DNA of 64,000 nucleotides, from contig JAJXZT010000004.1 in the NCBI GenBank assembly GCA_021779935.1, positions 1-64,000 on the forward strand, in the 5' to 3' direction. Both the position numbers and the translations under genes were made by a program. The notes under the pieces were generated by a model that worked only from the letters and a program-made list of their open reading frames with translations, had not been told where the DNA came from and did no database searches. The stretch's first letter is position 1. Every line of letters starts with the position of its first letter. The DNA is from Acidobacteriota bacterium (lineage in GTDB: Bacteria; Acidobacteriota; Terriglobia; Terriglobales; Acidobacteriaceae). Positions 15,839 to 32,436 of this stretch are shown piece after piece.

Positions 15839-17857
15839 CTACTTCAGGCGCGCTCCAACAGGAACTTCTTCCAGGAAGCTGGCCAGTGCGGGGACTCCTT
15901 CTTCCCCGAAAGATGCGGCGACGATCATCCCTTGCGATTCGATGCCGCGCAGTTTGCGCGGGGCGAGATTGGCGACGATCACCACCTTCCGCCCGATGAG
16001 CTTCTCCGGATCGTAAGCCTTGGCAATTCCGGCAACGATTGTGCGAACTTCCGTGCCAATATCCACGGTCAGCTTGAGCAGCTTGTCTGCTTTCTCGACC
16101 TTCTCGGCAGTCTTTACCTGGCCGACGCGCAACTCCACCTTCATGAAGTCGTCGATAGTAATTGTTCCACTGCCTGCCACAGGTGCGGGAGCAGGAATTG
16201 CCGGTTGTGCGCTTTGCGCTGCTGGTGTCGCGGGCGTGTTTTCGTTACTCGTTGCGGCCGGTGCTGCCGGAGTATTCCGCTCTTGTTCCATCTGTTGCAT
16301 CCTTTCAATTGCGCTCTTATCGGCGCGAGGGAAGACACCCTCGACTTTGCCCAGCTTTGTGCCGGCGCTCAGTTGTCCCCACTTGAGACTACGCAGCTCA
16401 AACTTCGCGATGTCTCCCAGCCCGAGCTGCGACCAGATACGGGCGGTTGAGTCGGGAAGGATAGGATAGGCGAGAGCAATCACAACACGCAGCGACTCGG
16501 CGCAGGTGTAGAGAATCTCGGAGAGCTTTGCACGATCCTCTTCGCCAGTGAGTTTCCAAGGAGCCATTTCCGCGATGTATCCATCCACGGTTGCGATCAG
16601 CGACCAGGCATCCCGCAGCGCTCCGGAGAAATCATAGTCGGCAAACTTCGCGCCGAAACCTTCGATTACGCTCTCGGCTTGTTGCTTAATCGCCGTTGCA
16701 GCCTCAGAAGATTGCTTCGGCGGAGCAGGTACGGCACCGTCGAAGTAGCGCGTGATCATCGAAAGCGTGCGACTGGCAAGATTCCCAAGTCCGTTTGCGA
16801 GGTCCGAGTTGTAGCGTTGCACCAGGGCATCGAACGAGAACGAACCGTCCTGACCGAAGACAATCTCGCGCAAAAGGAAGTAGCGCATGGCGTCCGCGCC
16901 GAGCACGTCAAGGATGGTTTCCGCGCGTACGATATTGCCACGCGATTTCGACATCTTGCTCTCTTCAAAGAGCAGCCATCCGTGCGCCACGATTTGCTTC
17001 GGTAACGGCAGGCCAGCGGCGATCAGGAATGCCGGCCAGTAGACGCAATGGAAGCGCACGATCTCCTTGCCGATCATGTGCAGGTCGGCTGGCCAGTAGC
17101 GCGCGTATTGTTGCTGGTCTTTTTTGTCGGGAGATCCATAACCGATCGCCGTGATGTAATTGCACAGCGCGTCGAGCCAAACGTAAATAACGTGTCCCGG
17201 ATCGTCCGGCACCGGGATGCCCCACTTGAACGTCGTGCGACTGATGGAGAGATCTTTCAGTCCGCTGCGTACGAAGGCGATGACCTCATTGCGCCGCGTC
17301 TCCGGGCGGATGAAGTTCGGGGTCTCCGTGTAGAGCTTGAGAAGCTGGTCTTCCAGCGCCGAGAGTTTGAAGAAGTAGTTCTCCTCCTTCACCGTCTCGG
17401 TTGGGCGGCCGCAATCCGGACAAGGTGCGCCAGGCGTATCCACATCGACGTAGAGTTCGTCGAACACGCAATATTGACCGCTATAAGTTGCCTTATAGAT
17501 GTAGCCGCGTTCCTTCAGCAGCGTAAACATGGCCTGTACGCCACGCTTGTGTTCCTCGCTGGTGGTGCGGATGAACTTGTCGTAGGTGATGCCGAGGCGA
17601 TCCCAGAGTTGCTTGTACTCGCCCGCCACTTCGTCGGTGAACTGTTGCGGCGACTTTCCCGCGGCGTTTGCCGAGCGCTCGATCTTCTGGCCGTGTTCAT
17701 CGGTACCGGTAAGAAAAAACGTGTCGACACCGAGGGCTCGCTGGCGTCGCGCAATCGCGTCGCAGGCAAGTGTCGTGTACGTGTGTCCAAGGTGAGGACG
17801 GGCGTTCACGTAGTAAATGGGCGTTGTGAGGTAAAACTTTCCTTCGGATCGATCCAT
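15839..17857 (-). CDS. metG: Methionyl-tRNA synthetase with C-terminal EMAPII-like domain
   Basis: The 672-residue class I synthetase has HLGH at residues 22-25 and KMSKS at 301-305. A single zinc-knuckle CPDC (about 143-146) in the connective domain marks the one-zinc form. After the anticodon-binding helical region, a Pro/Ala-rich linker (about 520-560) joins a tRNA-binding OB-fold domain (KVELRVGQV onward) used for dimerisation and tRNA capture. ATG 17857 starts 25 bases after larC, so the two are likely co-transcribed. Confidence 0.95.
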   Translation of the reverse strand: MDRSEGKFYLTTPIYYVNARPHLGHTYTTLACDAIARRQRALGVDTFFLTGTDEHGQKIERSANAAGKSPQQFTDEVAGEYKQLWDRLGITYDKFIRTTSEEHKRGVQAMFTLLKERGYIYKATYSGQYCVFDELYVDVDTPGAPCPDCGRPTETVKEENYFFKLSALEDQLLKLYTETPNFIRPETRRNEVIAFVRSGLKDLSISRTTFKWGIPVPDDPGHVIYVWLDALCNYITAIGYGSPDKKDQQQYARYWPADLHMIGKEIVRFHCVYWPAFLIAAGLPLPKQIVAHGWLLFEESKMSKSRGNIVRAETILDVLGADAMRYFLLREIVFGQDGSFSFDALVQRYNSDLANGLGNLASRTLSMITRYFDGAVPAPPKQSSEAATAIKQQAESVIEGFGAKFADYDFSGALRDAWSLIATVDGYIAEMAPWKLTGEEDRAKLSEILYTCAESLRVVIALAYPILPDSTARIWSQLGLGDIAKFELRSLKWGQLSAGTKLGKVEGVFPRADKSAIERMQQMEQERNTPAAPAATSNENTPATPAAQSAQPAIPAPAPVAGSGTITIDDFMKVELRVGQVKTAEKVEKADKLLKLTVDIGTEVRTIVAGIAKAYDPEKLIGRKVVIVANLAPRKLRGIESQGMIVAASFGEEGVPALASFLEEVPVGARLK

Positions 17858-17882
17858 GTTTTCCGTTCCAACGCAGGCAGCG

Positions 17883-19196
17883 CTACTTGCGCGCCTCCTG
17901 CTGATACAACCGCAGTGCTTCCTGCATGATGCTCTTCAGTGGCGTCTGAGTCCGCTCGGCAATTTTCCGGCAATCCTCGAACTCCGGAGCATAATTCGTA
18001 ATCTTCCCGTTCAGCCGCGCAACCTTTATGCGGATTTCTCCCCACTGTGTCGCGACCGATACATGCTCACGCTGCAAGGTGTGTCGCAACTCCTGCCGGA
18101 CGCGCAGGCCAATGGTAGTGGTTTCCGCAAAAATGATCCCGGCAATTGTCTGCGCATTTTCGGGCAGCGTAAGCACCGTCAGGATCACGCCCGGGCGACT
18201 CTTTTTCATCTGCACCGGGATGCCAAATGCGTCAAGCGCGCCGGCCTCCAATAAACGGTCGATGACGTAGCCAAACACCTGAGGGCTCATATCGTCGAGG
18301 TTCGCCTCGATGACGGTGACGCTGTCCTGTGGTGCAGCCAACTCCGTTTCCAGCGACTCGCCAACTGTAAGGCGCAACACGTTTGCGTTGCCTGCGATGT
18401 TTCGCGCGCCCGCGCCGTAACCGGTCGCGGAGACCCTCATCCGAGGCATGGAGCCGAACCTTGTTACCAGCGCACGAACCATTGCCGCGCCGGTCGGCGT
18501 CACCAGTTCCTTCTGGATGCCGGATGAGTACACCGGGGCATCCTTCAACAACTCAAGCGTCGCCGGCGCCGGAACCGGGAGCGTTCCGTGGGCGCACTGC
18601 ACCACTCCTCCGCCAACGTTGAGTTGCGAGCAAACCCATTCTTCGATACCCAGGTAATCCGCCGCCACGGCACCGCATAGGATGTCGACGATGGCATCGA
18701 CGGAGCCGACCTCGTGAAAATGAATTGTCTCGACATCCTTATTATGTATCTTCGCCTCAGCCTCGCCGAGCAGTTGGAAGGCCCGCAGCGCAGTTGTGCG
18801 CGCCTTCTCGCTGACCCTCGCCGCACGAAGTATGGCGCGAATTTCCTTCAATACTCGATGCGTGTGCTCGCCGTGCTCGTGGGCATGCGCGTGGTCGTGA
18901 GAATGGCTATGCTCCGTGCCGTCCTCATGCGTGTGTTCGTGCGGATGAGGGTGCCGATGCGCATGCTGTTCCAGATACTCCTCACGCGGTATGTCCTTCT
19001 CGCCATGGACGAACACGTCGACCTTGGTGGCGCTGATCCCGTTGCGGTCCACGCGTGAAGCTTGCAACTCGGCTCCCAGATTGAGTTCCCGGACTGTAGA
19101 CTGCAACAATTCCAGCGGAACGCCAGCATCAACCAGCGCGCCGAGGAACATATCTCCGCTGATCCCGGAGAAGCAATCAAGGTAGGCAATCTTCAT
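17883..19196 (-). CDS. larC: LarC: nickel insertion into pincer cofactor
   Basis: The start is ATG 19196 (MKIAYLDCFSGISGD), the family's usual start; the longer upstream frame runs into the divergent promoter region. The 437-residue protein is full length and unsplit. A His-rich insert (residues about 78-113, with HPHPHEHTH and HSHSHDHAHAHEH) is a likely nickel-binding loop. LarC is a CTP-dependent cyclometallase that inserts Ni into pyridinium-3,5-bisthiocarboxylate mononucleotide for lactate racemase and related enzymes. larA, larB and larE are not in this window, so the partners must be elsewhere or the cofactor serves another enzyme. It sits just upstream of metG. Confidence 0.92.
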   Translation of the reverse strand: MKIAYLDCFSGISGDMFLGALVDAGVPLELLQSTVRELNLGAELQASRVDRNGISATKVDVFVHGEKDIPREEYLEQHAHRHPHPHEHTHEDGTEHSHSHDHAHAHEHGEHTHRVLKEIRAILRAARVSEKARTTALRAFQLLGEAEAKIHNKDVETIHFHEVGSVDAIVDILCGAVAADYLGIEEWVCSQLNVGGGVVQCAHGTLPVPAPATLELLKDAPVYSSGIQKELVTPTGAAMVRALVTRFGSMPRMRVSATGYGAGARNIAGNANVLRLTVGESLETELAAPQDSVTVIEANLDDMSPQVFGYVIDRLLEAGALDAFGIPVQMKKSRPGVILTVLTLPENAQTIAGIIFAETTTIGLRVRQELRHTLQREHVSVATQWGEIRIKVARLNGKITNYAPEFEDCRKIAERTQTPLKSIMQEALRLYQQEARK

Positions 19197-19371
19197 AACT
19201 GCGATACGGGCCTTTCCCGCGGTGTCCGGCGTGCTACAGTGATCGAAGCGCCGGGCGCAATACTTCAATATATGGGCAGGCGGAGCGAGGGTCAAACGCC
19301 TGCCTGGCGGAACCGGGCGCGACGCAGTGGGATAATGGAAGCACAGATTCCTTGCGGAGAGTGAACGAGTC

Positions 19372-20145
19372 ATGAAGGCAGTGATCCTGGCAGGCGGCTT
19401 GGGCAGCCGTCTGGCGGAAGAGACGACGACCAAGCCCAAACCGATGGTGGAGATTGGCGGCCGTCCAATTCTCTGGCACATCATGAAGGTATATTCCGCG
19501 CACGGTATCAATGACTTCATCATCTGCCTCGGTTACAAGGGCTACCTGATCAAGGAATACTTCGCCAACTACTTCATGTATTCATCGGACATGACCATCG
19601 ATCTGGCGAGGAACGAGATCACTTACCAGCGCAACGATTGCGAGCCGTGGCGCGTGACGCTCATTGATACGGGCGTCGAAACGCAAACCGGCGGCCGACT
19701 GAAGCGCGTGTTGCCTTACGTGCAGGACGAAGATGCTTTCTGCTTCACCTACGGTGACGGAGTCGGCGATGTCGACATCGCGCGATTGATCCAATTCCAC
19801 CGGGAGCAGAAGACGCTTGTGACCGTAACGGCCGCGCAGCCGACGGGACGTTTCGGCGCGCTGACGATCGATGGCGAACGAGTCCGCGGATTCCTTGAAA
19901 AACCGCGAGGCGACGGCCAATGGGTCAGCGGCGGGTTCTTCGTGCTCTCGCCGCGCGTCGGTGAATACATCGAGGGCGACTCCTCCATCTGGGAGCACGA
20001 ACCGCTGGAGCGTCTCGCCCACGAAGGACAGGTTGCGGCCTACAAGCACGCGGGCTTTTGGCAGGCGATGGACAACATTTCCGAGCGCAACCTGCTCAAC
20101 CAGCTTTGGGATTCCGGCAAGGCCCCATGGAAGATCTGGAAGTAA
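19372..20145 (+). CDS. rfbF: Glucose-1-phosphate cytidylyltransferase
   Basis: The 257-residue nucleotidyltransferase has LAGGLGSRLAEET at residues 6-18 and TTKPKPMVEIGGRP at 19-32. The sequence GYKGYLIKEYFANY (about 54-67) is characteristic of CDP-glucose synthase rather than of UDP- or dTDP-forming relatives. It makes CDP-glucose from CTP and glucose-1-phosphate, the first step towards CDP-dideoxyhexoses. No rfbG/rfbH dehydratase is adjacent; the nearest sugar genes are the epimerase/GtrB/GtrA operon some 6 kb away on the same strand. It starts at ATG 19372, divergent from larC. Confidence 0.92.
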   Translation: MKAVILAGGLGSRLAEETTTKPKPMVEIGGRPILWHIMKVYSAHGINDFIICLGYKGYLIKEYFANYFMYSSDMTIDLARNEITYQRNDCEPWRVTLIDTGVETQTGGRLKRVLPYVQDEDAFCFTYGDGVGDVDIARLIQFHREQKTLVTVTAAQPTGRFGALTIDGERVRGFLEKPRGDGQWVSGGFFVLSPRVGEYIEGDSSIWEHEPLERLAHEGQVAAYKHAGFWQAMDNISERNLLNQLWDSGKAPWKIWK

Positions 20146-22684: not shown

Positions 22685-24109
22685 CTACTCTACCTCGCCC
22701 TGATCATTTTGCGCATTTGCCAATATGCCTACGAGCGAGTTGGCGAGATCCTTTCGTTCGCTTTTTTCCTCGATCTTTGTCATGGCGTATTTCCCAGCGA
22801 GGCTGAGTCCTGGTACCGCAGCGACGAGCGGCGCGAGGTAAGGTATAAGAAATGTGCCCAAAGAAAGCCAGCTAGCACCCGCTAAGCCACTGTATTTGCG
22901 CCGATATTTCTCGTCGAGCCTCTTTGCTTCACTCCGGTAATCGTTCAGGAGTCCTCCAATTCCCGAGGCTACCTCTGCCGCAACCCGATCTATATCTTCA
23001 AAATCTGCATCCCGCAGAATCGAGGTTGATTCCGCTAAACGCTTCCTGAAACGTTCATTCTCATTATTGAGGCGCATTTCTACGAGCGCGTCGATTGTTG
23101 CATTCGACAGCCATTCGAACCGTTGAGTTGCTAAAGCGTCGATCAATGTCCGCGTGGTGGCGGAGATCGTCAATCCTCTCTCAAGAGAATCACTACAGGC
23201 CGCTGCGCTCAATTTGAAATAATAAGCTTGCTGTTCTACCGATAGAAGAGGCTGCGCCCTCATCGCGATTGAGTTTTCAATCAAGTGAAACTGGGGTTCG
23301 AGTCTCTCCAATAAAGCGTTGCAGACCTTTTGCGCGTCCGAGAGGCTGTTCATAAAGGACATGTAAGAGGGAGTGCGCCATTCCCGAATCTCGCTGATGT
23401 AACGGCGCAGGGCGTCGTCAAGAGGCTCTCCAATCGGGCCGCCAGGTGCGACCAGCAGTTGCTTGACTCTCACAGCCTCCAGAAATTCTTCCGGATGTTC
23501 GGTCGCAAATTTCGCTGCATCCTCAATGCAGGTCAGCGGGAGATTGAGGAGGACGCCCAGCGTGCCTCCAACGAATTCTGTGAGCTTTTCCCGGCTTGTT
23601 TGGTCGTGTTGCTGAAGAAGTCTGTCGAAACTGGGAAATACGACCACTGGCGGGACGCCTAGGTCCGCGTCAACAAGAGGCTTAAGCCGGAGAATATAGA
23701 ACATTTCTTCCAAGATTCGAGTCGAGTGGAATTTTTCCTCTGGCCGTTCCGCTTCGATCAAGGCGAAAATGGGGTCCGGGATCAGAACCGTATCGGTGTA
23801 GAGGACCATTCTCTTGGCAGCGGCGAGTTGAGTTGTCCTGAAGTGGGCGCCCCCACCCATGACCGCTTTGATCCCACCCAATTCCGCCGCGTCGTGGTAG
23901 GGCTTCACAGTTTTGTAGACCTTGTTAAGTTCGGGCTCCGCCCACTCGAACGCTTTTTGCACGTCAGCTGCTCTCGAACCCAACGATCTTATTTTTTCCG
24001 CAAATTGACTCAAGGGAGCGAACTTTTTCGGGCTCGTTCCTGTTGCGCGTTCGAAGAACTCCTCAAGGACCGCGAACAGATCCCGCTGGTGGGCAATCAG
24101 TTCTTTCAT
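22685..24109 (-). CDS. Unrecognised 474-481 residue protein with C-terminal hydrophobic hairpin
   Basis: The frame runs from TTG 24130 or ATG 24109 (MKELIAHQRDLF); neither has a strong ribosome-binding site, so the start is uncertain. The protein is mainly helical and soluble, with many charged residues. A short beta-rich stretch (about 118-160) contains VLIPDPIF and VVVFPSFD. Near the C-terminus an approximately 35-residue hydrophobic segment (starting at LAGASWLSLGTFLIPYLAPL, about residues 425-459) could form a membrane-inserting hairpin. It is followed by a charged tail. I do not recognise a family. It is an orphan between argS and pepA, flanked by repeats, and looks like accessory cargo. 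Confidence 0.6.
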   Translation of the reverse strand: MKELIAHQRDLFAVLEEFFERATGTSPKKFAPLSQFAEKIRSLGSRAADVQKAFEWAEPELNKVYKTVKPYHDAAELGGIKAVMGGGAHFRTTQLAAAKRMVLYTDTVLIPDPIFALIEAERPEEKFHSTRILEEMFYILRLKPLVDADLGVPPVVVFPSFDRLLQQHDQTSREKLTEFVGGTLGVLLNLPLTCIEDAAKFATEHPEEFLEAVRVKQLLVAPGGPIGEPLDDALRRYISEIREWRTPSYMSFMNSLSDAQKVCNALLERLEPQFHLIENSIAMRAQPLLSVEQQAYYFKLSAAACSDSLERGLTISATTRTLIDALATQRFEWLSNATIDALVEMRLNNENERFRKRLAESTSILRDADFEDIDRVAAEVASGIGGLLNDYRSEAKRLDEKYRRKYSGLAGASWLSLGTFLIPYLAPLVAAVPGLSLAGKYAMTKIEEKSERKDLANSLVGILANAQNDQGEVE

Positions 24110-24210
24110 AGCGAATTGAAGATACAGCAAATCCCTTTCAGGCCAATAGCGGTAATTGTGAGTATATTTACGTTGTACATCGGTTCGGTTTAGCCTTTAT
24201 TGAGGAGGGA

Positions 24211-24939: not shown

Positions 24940-26463
24940 CTACTTCACTCCACCTGCCGCTGCGTTGCGGACCAGTTCGATGATGGAGCGGACGGCGATT
25001 CCGCTGGGGCCTTTGGCGATCCAGGCTTTGCTGTCCTCGATCCAGGCGGCTCCGGCGATGTCGAGGTGGAGCCACGGTTTATCTTCGACGAACTCCTTGA
25101 GGAACATGGCGGCCGTGACGGCTCCGCCCCAGCGTCCGCCGGTGTTCTTGATGTCGGCGATGTCGGAGTGGATCATCTCGGTGTATTCGGCGTCGACGGG
25201 GAGGCGCCAGAATTTCTCGCCGGAGTTCTGGAGCGCGGCGGCGAAGGCCTCGTAGTAGGCGTCGTCGTTGGCGAAGACGCCGGCATTGATGTGTCCCAGG
25301 GCGACGACGCAGGCGCCGGTGAGGGTGGCGGCATCGACGAGATGGGTGGCGCCGAGTTCGCGCGCATAGCAGAGGCCGTCGGCGAGGACGAGGCGGCCTT
25401 CGGCATCGGTGTTGATGATCTCGATGGACTTGCCGTTCATGGCGATCTGCACGTCGCCGGGTTTCTGGGCCTTGCCGCTGGGCAGATTCTCCGAAGCGCA
25501 GACGATGCCGATGACGCGCACGTTGGGCTTGAGCAGGGCAATGGCGCGCATGGCTCCGATCATGGCGGCTCCGCCGGCCATGTCGTACTTCATCTTCTCC
25601 ATGCCGTCGGAGGGCTTGATGGAGATTCCGCCGGAGTCAAAGGTGATGCCCTTGCCGACGAGTCCGATGACGGGACTGGCGGGAGCGGCGGCGGGTTCGT
25701 AGCGCATGACGATCAAGCGCGGCTCCTCGTCGGAGCCCTGCGCGACGCTCCAGAAAGCGCCCATCTTTAAGTCTTTGATTTTGTCCGGGCCGTGGACTTC
25801 ACACTTCAGGCCGACTTCCTTGCACATGGCGGCGGCGCGGTCGCCCATCATGGTGGGCGTCATGCGATTGCCGGGCTCGTTGACGAGGTCGCGAGTGAAA
25901 TTCTGCGATTCGGCGATGATGCGGCCCTCTTCGACGGCGGCGGCGAGGGCGCCCTGATCCGAAGAAGCTGGGACGACGACGGACATGGCGTCCATCTTGA
26001 GGTCCTTGCGGTCACTGCGGTAGTAGTCGGGATCGAAGTCGGCGACGACGGCGCCTTCGACGATGGCGCGGACAGCATCGGGCGTCTGCGATGCGTCGGG
26101 CGGGAGCAGGGTAAAGGACTTGAGGTTCTTGCCCTTGAGGAAACGGACGGCGGCTCCGGCAGCTTTGCGCAACTCGTGGACGGAGAAGTTCTTGAGCTTT
26201 CCGCCGCCAAGGAAGAGCAGGCGCCGGGCACGAAGTCCAGCGGGCTTGTGGAGAAGGATGGTCTCGAAGGCCTTGCCGGTGATTTCGTTCATCGCGACCA
26301 GATCCTGCGCGACGGCTTGCACGGCGGGATCGGAGGTCTGCAGGAGAGGGAGGGCCTGCTTGTTGGCGGAGGTCGCGTCGTTCCCATCCAGAACCAGAAC
26401 GACCAGACATTCCGTGTCAATTTGCGTGACTGGAAGTGTGGAAAGTAGGAGTTTCATGCCCAC
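24940..26463 (-). CDS. pepA: Leucyl aminopeptidase (M17)
   Basis: The 507-residue protein has an N-terminal macro-like domain and the M17 catalytic domain. Metal and catalytic motifs are clear: GKGITFDSGGISIKP, YDMAGGAAM and NTDAEGRL (residues 351-358), followed by DAATLTGACVVALGH. It should be a cytosolic hexameric di-zinc/manganese aminopeptidase removing N-terminal residues from peptides. The start is ATG 26463, with AAAGGGTTCC upstream. smpB ends upstream within 80 bases on the same strand. Confidence 0.94.
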   Translation of the reverse strand: MGMKLLLSTLPVTQIDTECLVVLVLDGNDATSANKQALPLLQTSDPAVQAVAQDLVAMNEITGKAFETILLHKPAGLRARRLLFLGGGKLKNFSVHELRKAAGAAVRFLKGKNLKSFTLLPPDASQTPDAVRAIVEGAVVADFDPDYYRSDRKDLKMDAMSVVVPASSDQGALAAAVEEGRIIAESQNFTRDLVNEPGNRMTPTMMGDRAAAMCKEVGLKCEVHGPDKIKDLKMGAFWSVAQGSDEEPRLIVMRYEPAAAPASPVIGLVGKGITFDSGGISIKPSDGMEKMKYDMAGGAAMIGAMRAIALLKPNVRVIGIVCASENLPSGKAQKPGDVQIAMNGKSIEIINTDAEGRLVLADGLCYARELGATHLVDAATLTGACVVALGHINAGVFANDDAYYEAFAAALQNSGEKFWRLPVDAEYTEMIHSDIADIKNTGGRWGGAVTAAMFLKEFVEDKPWLHLDIAGAAWIEDSKAWIAKGPSGIAVRSIIELVRNAAAGGVK

Positions 26464-26532
26464 GGAACCCTTTCTATAAGGACGCTAATATCTTAACGGC
26501 GGAGCCGGTAACGACTTGAGTTGCGGCAGCGA

Positions 26533-27060
26533 TTAGGTTTTACGGCTGCGGGCGATGGCGTCGCGCGCTTCCTTGTCGGCGGTGCGGCGACGTTCAGTCT
26601 CCCGTTTATCCCAAAGCTGCTTGCCCTTTGCGAGCGCCATCTCAACCTTTACTTTACCGTTCTTAAAATACATTCGAGTGGCGACAAGCGTAAGTCCCTT
26701 TTGCTGAAGTTTTCCGGTCAGCTTGAGGATTTCGGCCTTCTTGGCGAGCAATTTCCGGGTGCGGAGCGGTTGGTGGTTGAACTGCGCTCCGGGGGCGTAG
26801 GGGCCTATGTGGGCGTTGAGGAGGAAGAGCTCGCTATCTTTTACCAGGCCGTATGCGTCTTTCAAATTGGCAAGGCCATCGCGGACGGACTTGACTTCGG
26901 TGCCGTGGAGGACGATTCCCGCCTCGAATTTGTCCGATAGAAAATAATTGTGAGAAGCAGAGCGATTCTGGGCAGCGTCGCGCTCGCCGGATGCGACAGG
27001 GTCGCGCCGGACGTTTTTGGGCTTATTCGGTTGCGTTTGCTGCGCAGTGTTTCGAGCCAT
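26533..27060 (-). CDS. smpB: SsrA-binding protein SmpB
   Basis: The 175-residue protein binds tmRNA and delivers it to stalled ribosomes. The core matches SmpB: HNYFLSDKFEAGIVLHGTEVKSVR (described here as residues about 37-60), an HIGPYAPG segment and the C-terminal LAKGKQLWDKRETERRR tail, which acts in the decoding centre. An N-terminal extension of about 35 Gln/Asn/Arg-rich residues precedes the core and is longer than usual. The start is ATG 27060. No ssrA gene is seen in the window. Confidence 0.94.
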   Translation of the reverse strand: MARNTAQQTQPNKPKNVRRDPVASGERDAAQNRSASHNYFLSDKFEAGIVLHGTEVKSVRDGLANLKDAYGLVKDSELFLLNAHIGPYAPGAQFNHQPLRTRKLLAKKAEILKLTGKLQQKGLTLVATRMYFKNGKVKVEMALAKGKQLWDKRETERRRTADKEARDAIARSRKT

Positions 27061-27265: not shown

Positions 27266-29593
27266 ATGAAACGCCTGATGGCTACCCCGTCCCGGGGTTC
27301 CCGCACCCGCGTCGTAGTGATTCTTCTGCTGGTCATAATGGCCGCCTTGCCGGCACTGGCGGACAAGGCAAAGTCCCTTTACCAAAAGGGGCGCGACGCC
27401 GAGGCCCGACAGAACTACGAAGTCGCCTACGATTACTACAAACAGGCGTTTGACCTGAAGCCCAAAGAGCTGGACTACCGGATTGCGTATGAGCGGACGA
27501 AGCTCTATGCCGGGGCAGCTCACGTCAATCGCGGGCAACTGCTGCGCAAGGCGGGCAAGCTTCAGGAAGCACTGGCGGAATTTGAAAAGGCGATAAAGAT
27601 CGATCCTTCCAGTTTCATCGCACAGCAGGAATTACGTCGAACGGAGGACATGATCAATAAGCCTCCGGAGGCCACAGGCGCACCGGCGGGCTCGGAGAAG
27701 CAGGAGCGGAAGGACGTCAGAGAAATGGCGGCTCCGGTGCAACTGAAGCCGATTTCGAATACGCCGATTACGTTGCGGATGGTGGAGGACACAAAGGTCA
27801 TCTACGAGACGATCGGCAAGCTGGCGGGGATCAACGTTCTGTTCGATCCGGACTACACCTCGCGGCGGATCAAGATTGAATTGAATGCAGTGACACTGAG
27901 CCAGGCGCTGGAAATTGTGGCTCTGGAATCGAAGACCTTCTGGCGTCCAGTGACGCCGAACACGATCTACGTTGCGACTGACTCGAAGACGAATCGGCAG
28001 CAGATTGAGCCGCAAGTCCTGCGCACCTTTTATTTATCGAACCTTTCCGGGCCGACAGACATGCTGGACGTGGCCAATGCGCTGCGGTCGGTGCTGGAAA
28101 TCAGCCGCGTGCAGCAGCTTCCAAGCCAGAACGCAATCGTGGTTCGAGGAACAGCCGACCAGGTTCTGCTGGCTCAGAAGCTGATTGACGATCTCGACAA
28201 GCCGAAACCGGAAGTAATAGTTGAAGTCGCGATCATGCAGGTGCAGAAAGACAAGTTGAAGCAGTTGGGAATTCAGCCGCCGTTTACGTCGACTGCTTCG
28301 CCGACGGTCACGCTGCAATCGCCGACAACGACGTCGAGTTCCACTACTTCCGGTTCGACAAGCAGTTCAAGCACCAGCAGCACGGGCAACTTGACGCTGA
28401 ATGACCTGGCGAACCTGGATGCGCGCGACTTTGCAGTGACGATTCCGTCGATGAGCGTCTCAATGCTGATGAATGACAGCACGACAAGGGTGATCCAGAA
28501 CCCATCGGTCCGCGCACTGGATGGACAGAAGGCGGTACTGAAGATCGGCGAAAGGTACCCGATCGCGACCGGATCGTTCCAGCCGGGCATCGGCGGCGTG
28601 GGCATCAACCCGCTGGTGAACACGCAATTCCAGTACACGGATATTGGCGTCAATATAGAGATCACACCGCATGTTTATCCCGACAACGAAGTGGGATTGA
28701 AGGTTGTGATGGAGGTTTCGTCCGTCACGTCGCAGGCTAACATCGGCGGCATCACACAGCCGATCATTGGCAATCGCCACATCGAGCAGGACATACGGCT
28801 CAAGGACGGCCAGGTGAACCTGGTGGGCGGCATCATGGAGCACTCCGACGTAAAGGCCATCAGCGGATTGCCATGGCTGTCGCAGATTCCGGTGCTGAAA
28901 TACCTGTTCGGGCAGGAGCACACGGAGCACACGGAAAACGAAATCGTCTTCGCGCTGATTCCGCGCATTGTCCGCGGAACGGATGTGAACGACGTGAATA
29001 CCCGCACGGTTGACATTGGGACGGCGAACAACATCGAAGTGCGCCGGGTTCAGCCGCAGGCACCCACGACGGGGCAGCCCTCGATGCCGGTGGCCACGCC
29101 GCCGCAGCAGGGTGTTCCCACGATGCCTCCGCCGGCGCAGGCCCCAACGCCAACGGCACAGACGACGCCGGCAGTTGGAGGCCCGATCCTGAGCTTTGAC
29201 CCGCCGACCATCAACCAGGCGACAGGTTCCACGTTTATGGTCAACGTCGCGCTGAACGGAGCGCAGAACGTGTTCTCCATTCCGGCGCAGATCAACTACA
29301 ACCCAAAGCTGCTGCAATTGGTGAATGTGTCGGATGGCAACCTGTTGTCGCGTGACGGGCAGGCGGTTGCGCTGGTGCATCGCGACGATCCGAGTATTGG
29401 CAGCATCCAGGTTACAGCGACGAGACCACCGGGAAGCGGCGGTGTGTCGGGCAGTGGAAATGTATTTACGCTGACGTTCCTGGCGAAGGCTCCCGGAGAG
29501 GGAACGATCACGCTGAATCCGTCGATGTTGCGCGACCCGTCGATGCAGGCGACGGCGGTGAGCGGTTCGCAGGCGGTAGTTACGATTCGATAG
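27266..29593 (+). CDS. Secretin with N-terminal TPR and C-terminal cohesin-like domain
   Basis: This 775-residue exported outer-membrane protein starts at ATG 27266 with AAAGGAG upstream and a signal peptide ending near LPALA. TPR-like repeats occupy about residues 34-130. STN/N-domain segments follow to about 310, with VIVEVAIMQV opening the secretin core. A Ser/Thr-rich insert lies at about 352-375. The secretin signature GLPWLSQIPVLKYLF is at about 532-546. After a Pro-rich linker the last about 135 residues (from FDPPTINQATGSTF) look like a cohesin-type beta-sandwich. The pore should serve type II secretion or type IV pili, and two pseudopilin genes follow. The cohesin end may anchor partners. 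Confidence 0.87.
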   Translation: MKRLMATPSRGSRTRVVVILLLVIMAALPALADKAKSLYQKGRDAEARQNYEVAYDYYKQAFDLKPKELDYRIAYERTKLYAGAAHVNRGQLLRKAGKLQEALAEFEKAIKIDPSSFIAQQELRRTEDMINKPPEATGAPAGSEKQERKDVREMAAPVQLKPISNTPITLRMVEDTKVIYETIGKLAGINVLFDPDYTSRRIKIELNAVTLSQALEIVALESKTFWRPVTPNTIYVATDSKTNRQQIEPQVLRTFYLSNLSGPTDMLDVANALRSVLEISRVQQLPSQNAIVVRGTADQVLLAQKLIDDLDKPKPEVIVEVAIMQVQKDKLKQLGIQPPFTSTASPTVTLQSPTTTSSSTTSGSTSSSSTSSTGNLTLNDLANLDARDFAVTIPSMSVSMLMNDSTTRVIQNPSVRALDGQKAVLKIGERYPIATGSFQPGIGGVGINPLVNTQFQYTDIGVNIEITPHVYPDNEVGLKVVMEVSSVTSQANIGGITQPIIGNRHIEQDIRLKDGQVNLVGGIMEHSDVKAISGLPWLSQIPVLKYLFGQEHTEHTENEIVFALIPRIVRGTDVNDVNTRTVDIGTANNIEVRRVQPQAPTTGQPSMPVATPPQQGVPTMPPPAQAPTPTAQTTPAVGGPILSFDPPTINQATGSTFMVNVALNGAQNVFSIPAQINYNPKLLQLVNVSDGNLLSRDGQAVALVHRDDPSIGSIQVTATRPPGSGGVSGSGNVFTLTFLAKAPGEGTITLNPSMLRDPSMQATAVSGSQAVVTIR

Positions 29594-29747
29594 CGAATCA
29601 ACCGGCGGACGGCATTTAGGTATGTGGTACTTGAGTGCCTGTGAGGATGCCTCACTGCCGGCGGCAGTTGGAACGCAGGCTTCCGTTCGGTCTCCGACCG
29701 CATCTCACCGATGACGAGGATTCGCGCCGGAAGAGCTTGGAGTTTTG

Positions 29748-30218
29748 ATGTTACGGCTCAAAAATCCGACGGTGAAAGAGTCCCGGGGATTCACGCTGAT
29801 CGAGCTGATCGTGGCGATCGCGGTGATGGCAATCCTTGCCGGGGCAGCCATCCCGTTGGCTCGTGTGAGTATCAAACGCGAGAAAGAGCGGCGTTTACGG
29901 CACGCGCTGTGGGAGATGCGGGACGCGATTGACCGTTACAAGGAAGCCGCGGACCGTGGCGCATTCCAGATCAAGCTGGGTTCGGAAGGGTATCCGCCCG
30001 ACCTGGACACGCTGGTGAATGGAGTGGATGTTGGCGGCAAGAAGATCCGGTTCCTGCGGCGCATCCCGAGGGACCCGATGACGAACAGCACGGATTGGGG
30101 ACTGCGCTCGATGCAGGACGATCCGGATTCGCAGTCATGGGGCGGACAGAACGTTTTCGATGTGTATACGAAGTCGCCGGACACGGCGCTGGACGGCACG
30201 AAGTACGCGGATTGGTAG
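29748..30218 (+). CDS. Type II secretion/pilin-like pseudopilin (GspG-type)
   Basis: The start is taken as ATG 29748; a TTG one codon earlier is less likely. The prepilin leader MLRLKNPTVKESRG precedes FTLIELIVAIAVMAIL, with the processing site after Gly and Glu at mature position 5. The about 156-residue length and the later LRRIPRDPMTNSTDWGLRS segment match major pseudopilins of the GspG type. It should be processed by a prepilin peptidase and assemble in the periplasm. It follows the secretin gene by about 150 bases. Confidence 0.85.
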   Translation: MLRLKNPTVKESRGFTLIELIVAIAVMAILAGAAIPLARVSIKREKERRLRHALWEMRDAIDRYKEAADRGAFQIKLGSEGYPPDLDTLVNGVDVGGKKIRFLRRIPRDPMTNSTDWGLRSMQDDPDSQSWGGQNVFDVYTKSPDTALDGTKYADW

Positions 30219-30234
30219 GGGCTCGGGTAGGCAG

Positions 30235-30660
30235 ATGATTCTTCCGGCAAATTCCTCCACTGGCGGAATAAAAAATCGGTTCCGTGGCTTCACGCTCATC
30301 GAGCTGATGATCGTGCTGGCGATCATTGCCATCATCATGGGAATCGCGATCCCGAACTACCGCATTCACGTACTCCACGCGCGGGAGTCGGTACTGCGGC
30401 AGGACCTGTTCACGCTGCGCTCGACGATTGACCAGTACACGCTCGATAAGCAGAAGGCGCCGCAGTCGCTGCAAGACCTGGTGACCGCGGGCTACCTGCG
30501 CGTCATTCCGAAAGACCCGATCACGAACTCGGCCGATACCTGGGTGACGGTACAGGAAGACACCTACATGTCGGTGGACCAGAGTTCGCCGGGAATTACC
30601 GACGTACACAGCGGCAGCGACGCGATCAGCACCGACGGCACTCCGTATAACACGTGGTGA
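30235..30660 (+). CDS. Second GspG-type pseudopilin
   Basis: The start is ATG 30235 (MILPANSSTGGIKNRFRG), chosen over an upstream in-frame extension with no prepilin leader. After the Gly cleavage site comes FTLIELMIVLAIIAIIMGIAIPNY with the conserved Glu5. The C-terminal part has LQDLVTAGYLRVIPKDPITN, a close parallel to the first pseudopilin, so the pair probably arose by duplication. It lies 16 bases after the previous stop and shares its operon. Confidence 0.85.
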   Translation: MILPANSSTGGIKNRFRGFTLIELMIVLAIIAIIMGIAIPNYRIHVLHARESVLRQDLFTLRSTIDQYTLDKQKAPQSLQDLVTAGYLRVIPKDPITNSADTWVTVQEDTYMSVDQSSPGITDVHSGSDAISTDGTPYNTW

Positions 30661-30753
30661 CGAACACCCGGTCCCGCCCCGGCGTCCCGCGACTTGCTCC
30701 CCGGCACCCCGCCGCACTACCATGCTGAGTTCACTTTCTTCGTGAGGCCAGCC

Positions 30754-32436
30754 ATGCCTGTTGATACTGAGTTTTCCGCACGCACTTATTCCCCCATCAA
30801 AGCACCGCGCGGTACAGAGATTTCCTGCAAGTCGTGGCAGCAGGAAGCCGCGATGCGAATGCTGATGAATAACCTCGATGAGGAAGTCGGCGAGCGTCCG
30901 CGCGACCTGGTGGTGTATGGAGGGACAGGCCGCGCCGCGCGTTCGTGGGAGTGCTACGACGCGATCATCCGGTCGCTGAAGTCGCTGGACAACGACGAGA
31001 CGCTGCTGGTGCAGTCCGGCAAGCCGGTCGGGATTTTCCGCACGCACGAGTACGCGCCGCGCGTGCTCATCTGCAATTCGAATCTCGTGGGGCATTGGTC
31101 CAACTGGGAAAAGTTCAACGAACTGGAACGCGCCGGATTAATGATGTACGGGCAGATGACCGCAGGCTCGTGGATTTATATCGGCTCGCAGGGAATCATC
31201 CAGGGAACGTTCGAGACGTTTGCCGCAGCCGGAGAAAAACATTTCGGCGGCGAACTGGCGGGGAAACTGATTGTTTCGGGCGGAATGGGCGGAATGGGCG
31301 GAGCCCAGCCACTGGCGGCGACGATGACGGGGGCGTGTTTCCTCGGCATCGATCCCGATCCCGAGCGCATCAAGAAGCGGCTCAAGACCGGCTACTGCGA
31401 TTTCATGGTGAACTCGCTGGACGAGGCGCTGCGCATCCTGAAGAACGCGATTCGGAAGAAGGAGAACATTTCGGTTGGGCTCGTGGCCAATTGCGCCGAC
31501 GTGATCCCCGAACTGGCGGAGCGCGGCGTGGTGCCAGATATTCTTACCGACCAGACTTCCGCGCACGATCCACTGAATGGATACATTGCGCGCGGCATGA
31601 CGCTGGAAGAAGTGGCGGCGATGCGCAAGAGCGATCCCAAGGGATACCTGGAACGCTCGATGGACTCGATTGCGCTGCATGTGGAAGGCATGTTGCGGCT
31701 ACAGAAGATGGGCGCAGTGACGTTCGACTACGGCAATAACATCCGCACGTTCGCCTTCGAACGCGGAGTGAAGAACGCGTACGATTTTCCGGGATTCGTG
31801 CCGGCATACATCAGGCCGCTGTTCTGCGAAGGGCGCGGGCCGTTCCGCTGGGCAGCGCTCTCGGGCGAGGCGTCGGACATTCACACCACAGACGACCTGA
31901 TTCTGCAGATGTTCCCGCAGAACCGCATCCTCAGCCGGTGGATCGACCTGGCTCGCAAGAGGATTCACTTCCAGGGACTGCCGTCTCGCATCTGCTGGCT
32001 TGGATACGGAGAGCGCGCGGAGTTCGGACTGGCGATGAACGACCTGGTGAAGAAGGGGAAGATCAAGGCGCCGATCGTCATCGGCCGCGATCACCTCGAC
32101 TGCGGGTCGGTGGCCTCGCCATTCCGCGAGACGGAGAGCATGAAAGACGGTTCGGATGCGGTGGCTGACTGGCCGTTGCTCAACGCGCTGCTTAACACTG
32201 CGTCGGGTGCATCGTGGGTTTCCATCCACAACGGTGGCGGCGTGGGAATCGGGTACTCGCAACATGCAGGGCAGGTGACGGTGGCCGACGGCACGGACGA
32301 GATGGCAAAGCGCATCGAACGCGTGTTGACGAACGATCCGGGAATTGGGGTCGCGCGGCACGTGGACGCCGGTTACGACGAGGCCCGCGAGTTTGCACAC
32401 AAGAAGGGCGTGAAAATTCCGATGGAGAGCAAGTAG
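30754..32436 (+). CDS. hutU: Urocanate hydratase
   Basis: The start is ATG 30754 ([12 protein letters not shown]) after GTGAGG; a frame extension upstream is not needed. The 560-residue protein matches urocanase along its length, with the NAD+-binding region around [11 protein letters not shown] (about residues 178-190) and the catalytic-Cys motif [12 protein letters not shown] (Cys450). It converts urocanate to imidazolonepropionate in the cytoplasm. It is directly followed (2-base gap) by hutI, the next step of histidine degradation. hutH is not in the window. Confidence 0.95.

Follow-up and report, generated by a model that had tools for sequence, protein, structure and literature searches.

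A cohesin-bearing secretin in an Acidobacteriota genome: the probable outer-membrane half of a split type II secretion-like system

Background

The Geobacteraceae have a second type II secretion system (T2SS), reported to possess the pseudopilins PulG, OxpG and TklG and to be needed by the multicopper oxidase OmpB for its secretion (PMC3543383); the Geobacter pulGPQF genes are named in a further paper (PMC10599522). A survey of the type IV filament superfamily lists many 'generic' systems and reassigns T2SS in further phyla (PMC6668835); the terms 'Acidobacteri', 'Geobacter' and 'cohesin' do not occur in its main text. The present work concerns a 64-kb stretch of contig C32 (hereafter the window) in the genome of a soil Acidobacteriota bacterium of the family Acidobacteriaceae (assembly GCA_021779935.1; 4.49 Mb, 72 contigs, 99 % complete). 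In this stretch a gene for a secretin with TPR repeats in front and a cohesin domain behind is followed by two pseudopilin genes, named here PP1 and PP2. No description of a secretin with a cohesin domain was found in the open-licence literature, to parts of which the search was limited, and the combination is not claimed to be unpublished.

Results

The secretin ends in a cohesin domain

A preliminary description of the window had placed TPR repeats at one end of the secretin and a cohesin at the other, and both were confirmed by Pfam matches above the cut-offs (Table 1). The Cohesin family (PF00963) was matched at residues 647-759 with 48.1 bits (cut-off 24.1), and with 53.5 bits when the C-terminal 150 residues were submitted in isolation. 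The AF2 model of these 150 residues, built with 38 homologues, reached a pLDDT of 94.8. All 50 Foldseek rows shown for the C-terminal domain were cohesin-bearing entries by title, and Archaeoglobus fulgidus supplied the top match, a non-cellulosomal cohesin (E 6.9e-10). The structural aligner gave Z 17.6 to the CipA cohesin 1aoh and Z 17.2 to the A. fulgidus cohesin 2xdh, and a profile search of the PDB up to E 1 listed 28 distinct sequences, every one from a cohesin or scaffoldin entry to judge by molecule name or title (best E 4.9e-6). Judged by the predicted structure together with the Pfam match, the C-terminal segment folds as a true cohesin, as had been proposed.

The pore domain assigns the protein to the Secretin family. 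The best-scoring NCBIfam model was GspD, with 157 bits against a cut-off of 351, and PilQ gave 123 bits, below the cut-off of 284. An N0-like domain appears to precede Secretin_N at residues ~168-238, as suggested by the model and by STN/N0 matches in relatives. In the full-length model residues 31-131 were confidently helical and 574-637 disordered, and a beta domain was predicted with confidence from residue 641 on; the overall pTM of this model was only 0.32 and it was used solely for domain boundaries and disorder. The Foldseek rows obtained for it were secretins and cohesins. No relative was found in the viral contigs searched with the window secretin.

The cohesin is a constant part of this secretin among relatives. 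The genome collection contains at least 565 relatives of PP1, which is a well-conserved signature of the module, and the best 80 of them, hence close relatives, formed the named set; all 80 bear Acidobacteriota names, mostly Acidobacteriaceae or Terriglobia. A secretin lies directly upstream of PP1 in 78 of these loci, the exceptions being L100, which is cut by a contig edge, and L141, where PP1 stands alone. Seventy of the 78 secretins are longer than 700 aa, the other eight being in pieces or at a contig edge, and the C-terminal cohesin is present in 70 of 70, also when searched for with a profile from other loci; these loci were chosen by PP1 and not by the cohesin. In the relatives 45 to 170 aa separate the pore from the cohesin. 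A Pfam Cohesin match was obtained for all 39 members submitted, the window's included.

Cohesin matches were also found in 50 of 50 genomes of the window's family and, as far as the listing order shows, in all 54 family and class genomes within a draw of 395 genomes from the phylum, 231 of which have a match when cohesins anywhere in the genome are counted, not only those on secretins. Thirteen family loci were read in addition to that of the window, and all of them have the match on the secretin; of the 29 loci with the best cohesin matches (L022-L050), 16 matched the window secretin and 13 did not. Within the class the cohesin carries a nearly invariant motif of DGQ and RPP loops and an S-x-P strand; at the level of sequence, the class-specific DGQ and RPP loops fit a lineage-specific ligand. 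We dropped as evidence an attempt to relate the S-x-P positions to the residues with which the CipA cohesin presumably contacts its dockerin.

PP1 and PP2 are two paralogous pseudopilins

Two pseudopilins do follow the secretin, each with a prepilin N-terminal methylation motif, but they are not the near-duplicates that they had been taken for. PP1 and PP2 are 34 % identical over 144 residues, and the relatives have a separate counterpart for each of them (42-80 % identity for PP1, 37-71 % for PP2). Their mutual identity marks them, by sequence, as two old paralogues. Since the start of the PP2 ORF overlaps PP1, the ATG at 30235 is probably the true start of PP2.

Motor and platform are encoded on another contig

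The secretin-PP1-PP2 block is directly flanked by smpB and urocanase, and no ATPase, platform or peptidase gene adjoins it. The absence of these components, stated in the preliminary description, thus holds beside the three genes and fails for the genome as a whole: a genome search for gspE and gspF found both on contig C6, and one prepilin peptidase match is on contig C20. The genes on C6 are arranged in the order gspF, gspE, pilM-like, pilN, pilO-like, a gene for a protein in PilP/GspC position and a pseudopilin-like gene, with no secretin among them. The C6 GspE carries an MshEN domain and scores 542.5 bits against NCBIfam GspE (cut-off 630) and 551 bits against PilB (cut-off 675.65), while the C6 GspF scores 311.6 bits against NCBIfam GspF (cut-off 424). 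The PilM label comes from an NCBIfam match below the cut-off (37.8 vs 133 bits), the PilO label from a weak Pfam match (14 vs 22 bits) and the PilP/GspC label from position and appearance. The C6 pseudopilin, which has no Pfam or NCBIfam match, was named by its N-terminus and its similarity to PP1.

A core set of the type IV filament superfamily is consequently distributed over the genome, with GspE and GspF on C6, the secretin and pseudopilins in the window and the peptidase on C20; from synteny in relatives we infer that these components act together. The system was not filed as a canonical T2SS or type IVa pilus because the secretin, the C6 GspE and the GspF are all below the NCBIfam cut-offs for GspD, GspE, GspF, PilB and PilQ.

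In total, the genome encodes three secretins, eight T2SSE matches including three long GspE-like ATPases, and four T2SSF matches in two proteins. The third secretin (L020:8599-10485, on C20; 628 aa) has a secretin domain, TPR matches below the cut-off and no cohesin match; it is below all the NCBIfam cut-offs listed and no platform gene was noticed beside it. A long GspE-like ATPase of 707 aa is encoded on contig C9 (L021:7107-9230), which has no T2SSF match.

The same genes are contiguous in other classes

Nineteen neighbourhoods were picked from the 231 genomes with a cohesin match, 17 from other classes and two from the window's class. In the other classes gspE accompanies the cohesin-secretin in 17 of 17 loci and gspF in 16, the remaining contig (L062) beginning inside gspE. 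PP1 and PP2 were both recognised in nine of them (L051, L056, L059, L060, L062, L063, L064, L067, L069), and seven of the nine have the order F-E-M-N-secretin-PP1-PP2 (L062 from gspE on); in L060 PP1-PP2 come before the secretin and in L067 pilM comes after PP2. Genes in PilO and PilP position were recognised by eye in L051, L059 and L069.

In the window's class both neighbourhoods (L065, L066) are split. Among 15 separately collected GspF loci of the class, 13 have no secretin-PP1-PP2 in the stretch read, including G074 with a cohesin match on the same contig ~15 kb away, and in two, from a single family (G427, G402), the block lies directly upstream of gspF. The 80 PP1 stretches, of 3.8 to 20.5 kb, gave no match to any of the C6 proteins, GspE and GspF included. 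In 56 of 61 class genomes there is a GspF that shares at least 40 % identity with the C6 protein, and two more (G398, G437) have fragments. In five of nine genomes of the window's family the C6-type protein is the only GspF/PilC at E<=1e-30 and all five have a cohesin match, so no other platform is seen for their cohesin-secretin. The simplest reading of these gene arrangements is one machine whose genes became unlinked; the lack of an ATPase beside the secretin would then be due to a split operon and not to a motor-less machine.

Related clusters on betaproteobacterial plasmids

A tblastn search of plasmids with the secretin matched 711 records, with 80 % or more of the query covered in six, and four plasmid regions were read, from Eleftheria terrae, Paraburkholderia largidicola, Janthinobacterium lividum and Cupriavidus metallidurans CH34. 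Each of the first three contains a cluster of GspF, GspE, secretin, PP1, PP2 and a third pseudopilin-type gene. All three secretins have TPR, Secretin and Cohesin matches and score highest with the window secretin, and the three GspEs are 46-54 % identical to the C6 GspE vs 36-37 % to the genome's PilB-like ATPase. In existing annotation the secretins of E. terrae and J. lividum are each a 'cohesin domain-containing protein' and that of P. largidicola is a TPR protein. The C. metallidurans CH34 megaplasmid encodes a related secretin (L170:11716-13920) with a proline-rich tail and no cohesin match.

The J. lividum cluster lies between FG-GAP-repeat and RHS-repeat genes (L153:1-6833 and 17797-19545), whose products are possible cargo. 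The P. largidicola cluster is followed downstream (L152:14791-19391) by genes for a protein with a PKD domain and for one that resembles di-haem cytochrome c peroxidase/MauG.

Neighbouring genes

In several clusters an Ig/PKD-like lipoprotein is encoded between PP2 and the third pseudopilin, and it is a candidate partner of the cohesin. The lipoprotein-like proteins that follow PP2 gave PKD or Big_1/invasin-like matches in L051, L063 and L069, the three that were scanned, those to Big_1 being below the cut-off; in L061 a lipoprotein-like ORF without a Pfam match comes after the secretin.

The genes flanking the window's block recur in the 80 named loci, as found by tblastn: smpB in 69, a gene which we take to be leucyl-aminopeptidase-like in 47 and urocanase in 32. 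Their recurrence points to old synteny and not to a cohesin partner. A 481-aa ORF further upstream (window 22685-24130, - strand) had no Pfam match at E 0.001.

Table 1 Features of the secretin-pseudopilin block and of related loci (window coordinates unless a locus is named)
Feature	Position	Strand	Evidence
TPR-secretin with C-terminal cohesin, 775 aa	27266..29593	+	Pfam matches, full-length model, Foldseek
TPR region, residues 31-131	27356..27658	+	Pfam TPR_2/TPR_1 at 84-115 (44.3 bits); helices, block pLDDT 84-96
Secretin_N ring domain, residues 255-315	28028..28210	+	Pfam PF03958, 33.4 bits
Secretin pore domain, residues 401-570	28466..28975	+	Pfam PF00263, 130.2 bits (cut-off 27.5)
Pro/Thr/Gln/Ala-rich linker, residues 574-637, predicted disordered	28985..29176	+	pLDDT <50
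Cohesin domain, residues 641-775	29186..29590	+	PF00963, AF2 pLDDT 94.8, Z 17.6 to 1aoh
Pseudopilin PP1, 157 aa	29745..30218	+	N_methyl 35.1 bits
Pseudopilin PP2, ORF 166 aa	30160..30660	+	N_methyl 39.5 bits; GspG/ComGC matches below cut-off
Lipoprotein-like protein after PP2	L051:7717-8661, L059:11292-12179, L063:6974-8032, L069:10826-11728		
Flanking genes recurring in related loci	24940-27060 and 30694-32436		tblastn

Discussion

We consider it likely that the genome encodes an intact but split T2SS-like exporter in which a cohesin, tethered to the secretin and independent of dockerins, binds one of the system's own components or products. The window would represent the outer-membrane half of an export machine of the type IV filament superfamily, of the 'atypical type II secretion' kind. 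The pore would be a ring of TPR-secretin subunits, and PP1, PP2 and a third pseudopilin encoded elsewhere would build a short periplasmic filament acting as a piston. The inner-membrane half would be supplied from C6, comprising the GspF platform, the GspE ATPase, the PilM/N/O-like proteins, the protein in PilP/GspC position and the third pseudopilin, the secretin-PP1-PP2 block having been unlinked in this class from a formerly contiguous operon. GspE and GspF would drive the pseudopilus on the PilM/N/O-like proteins and so push folded proteins through the secretin.

With the cohesin of each subunit on a long flexible tether, the assembled pore would display a ring of binding modules. Known secretins have 12-15 subunits, and a ring of 12-15 cohesins would be expected if the present one is alike. 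In GspD the C-terminus points to the periplasm close to the inner leaflet; by comparison with the S-domain at that end of GspD, the cohesin most likely lies near the periplasmic side of the pore or outer membrane. There it probably binds cargo or an accessory protein and not a dockerin, and it would so collect at the gate either cargo or an accessory lipoprotein of the outer membrane. The more specific proposal, that the tethered ring is a multivalent, dockerin-independent receptor for cargo or lipoprotein kept in both Acidobacteriota and Betaproteobacteria, is put forward only tentatively.

Several observations weigh against this reading or parts of it. The C6 and window loci are brought together through synteny in relatives, the 17 loci of other classes were themselves chosen for their cohesin match, and eight of them (L052-L055, L057, L058, L061, L068) have no recognised PP1 and PP2 next to the secretin. 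Two class genomes (G397, G424) have only GspF matches of 33-36 % identity and one (G423) has none. The betaproteobacterial GspFs do not discriminate, being 25-27 % identical to both the C6 GspF and PilC, with one of the three scoring higher with PilC. The analysis identified no cohesin partner: the candidate Ig/PKD-like lipoprotein is not universal and none was seen by eye beside the window or C6 loci, the rest of the genome not having been searched for it. The DGQ/RPP/S-x-P motif is not kept outside the class: over 22 cohesins mainly structural residues are conserved, so by sequence a single fixed ligand across the wider set is unlikely. To judge from the C. metallidurans secretin, the cohesin is not essential to every such machine.

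The conservation of structural residues over the wider set is compatible with a purely structural cohesin, which leads to the most serious alternative, namely that the domain replaces the pilotin-binding S-domain and serves in targeting, assembly or retention of the secretin in the outer membrane without any ligand. GspD carries its S-domain after the secretin domain, which is where the cohesin sits; the residues kept across phyla are structural ones while the surface varies, and no pilotin gene was noticed in the clusters, although no search was aimed at pilotins. Yet the cohesin is separated from the pore by a linker that is disordered in the model and of variable length among relatives, the Cupriavidus secretin does without the domain, and the near-invariant loop motif of the class would suit a binding site. 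This explanation is a possible one that we doubt. It is improbable that the cohesin is displayed at the outer membrane to receive enzymes or adhesins with dockerins, in the manner of cellulosome-like systems. The preliminary description had suggested that the domain might hold dockerin-like partners, and it does have a true cohesin fold close to dockerin-binding as well as non-cellulosomal cohesins; dockerin domains are also present in 143 of the 395 phylum genomes. The expectation was nevertheless not borne out by the dockerin search of the window's own genome, which has one cohesin and no match to Dockerin_1 (PF00404) even at E 10. In the family a dockerin is found in 3 of 50 genomes vs a cohesin in all 50, and over the 395 genomes, where any cohesin was counted, the two domains occur independently (cohesin in 231, both in 82; odds ratio 0.93, p 0.75). 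All these counts come from Dockerin_1 searches, the reach of which does not extend to dockerin-like folds of other kinds.

Two further explanations concern the machine as a whole. The window secretin could serve a type IV pilus in place of the C6 platform, as a second GspE/GspF set is encoded on contig C28, where PilB, PilT and PilC (named by order and length) stand in a row like a type IV pilus motor. A separate PilQ above its NCBIfam cut-off (339 vs 284 bits) is, however, encoded on contig C7 beside PilM-/PilO-like ORFs recognised by eye, and the five family genomes with a cohesin match and a single, C6-type GspF/PilC also speak against such a role, which we regard as very unlikely. A decaying or orphan module left over from a secretion system is scarcely credible: the block does stand alone in the window, but its reading frame is intact, the secretin is kept directly upstream of PP1 in nearly all the named loci, and the cohesin is retained throughout the family and on the secretin wherever the locus was read. 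The preferred reading, a split T2SS-like exporter, implies that such systems in Acidobacteriota can be divided between loci, and a survey that requires the genes to be contiguous may count such a system as incomplete. It also sets a widely conserved and probably not dockerin-based cohesin on a defined machine, which makes the question of the ligand of non-cellulosomal cohesins testable.

Comparison with known systems

The window secretin shares with GspD/PulD the Secretin_N and secretin domains and Foldseek matches to GspD structures. It differs from them by the TPRs in front and the long linker and cohesin behind, and its assembly proteins would be PilM/N/O-like. The genome's own PilQ on C7 belongs to the same secretin superfamily but has AMIN, N0 and STN domains and no TPR or cohesin match. 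The cohesin has the same fold as 1aoh and 2xdh over 134 and 125 residues, at 16 and 22 % identity, respectively; in contrast to these, it is carried by a secretin in a genome in which no dockerin was recognised.

As a system, the locus resembles the 'atypical' Pul/OxpG T2SS of Geobacter, whose three pseudopilins and P/Q-type gene naming, as described in the literature, fit the present gene set. Likeness in gene content is seen in the betaproteobacterial plasmid clusters, where a TPR-secretin-cohesin gene is followed by PP1, PP2 and a third pseudopilin-type gene and accompanied by GspF and GspE. Those clusters differ in being contiguous and plasmid-borne, with ~25 % identity in the secretin.

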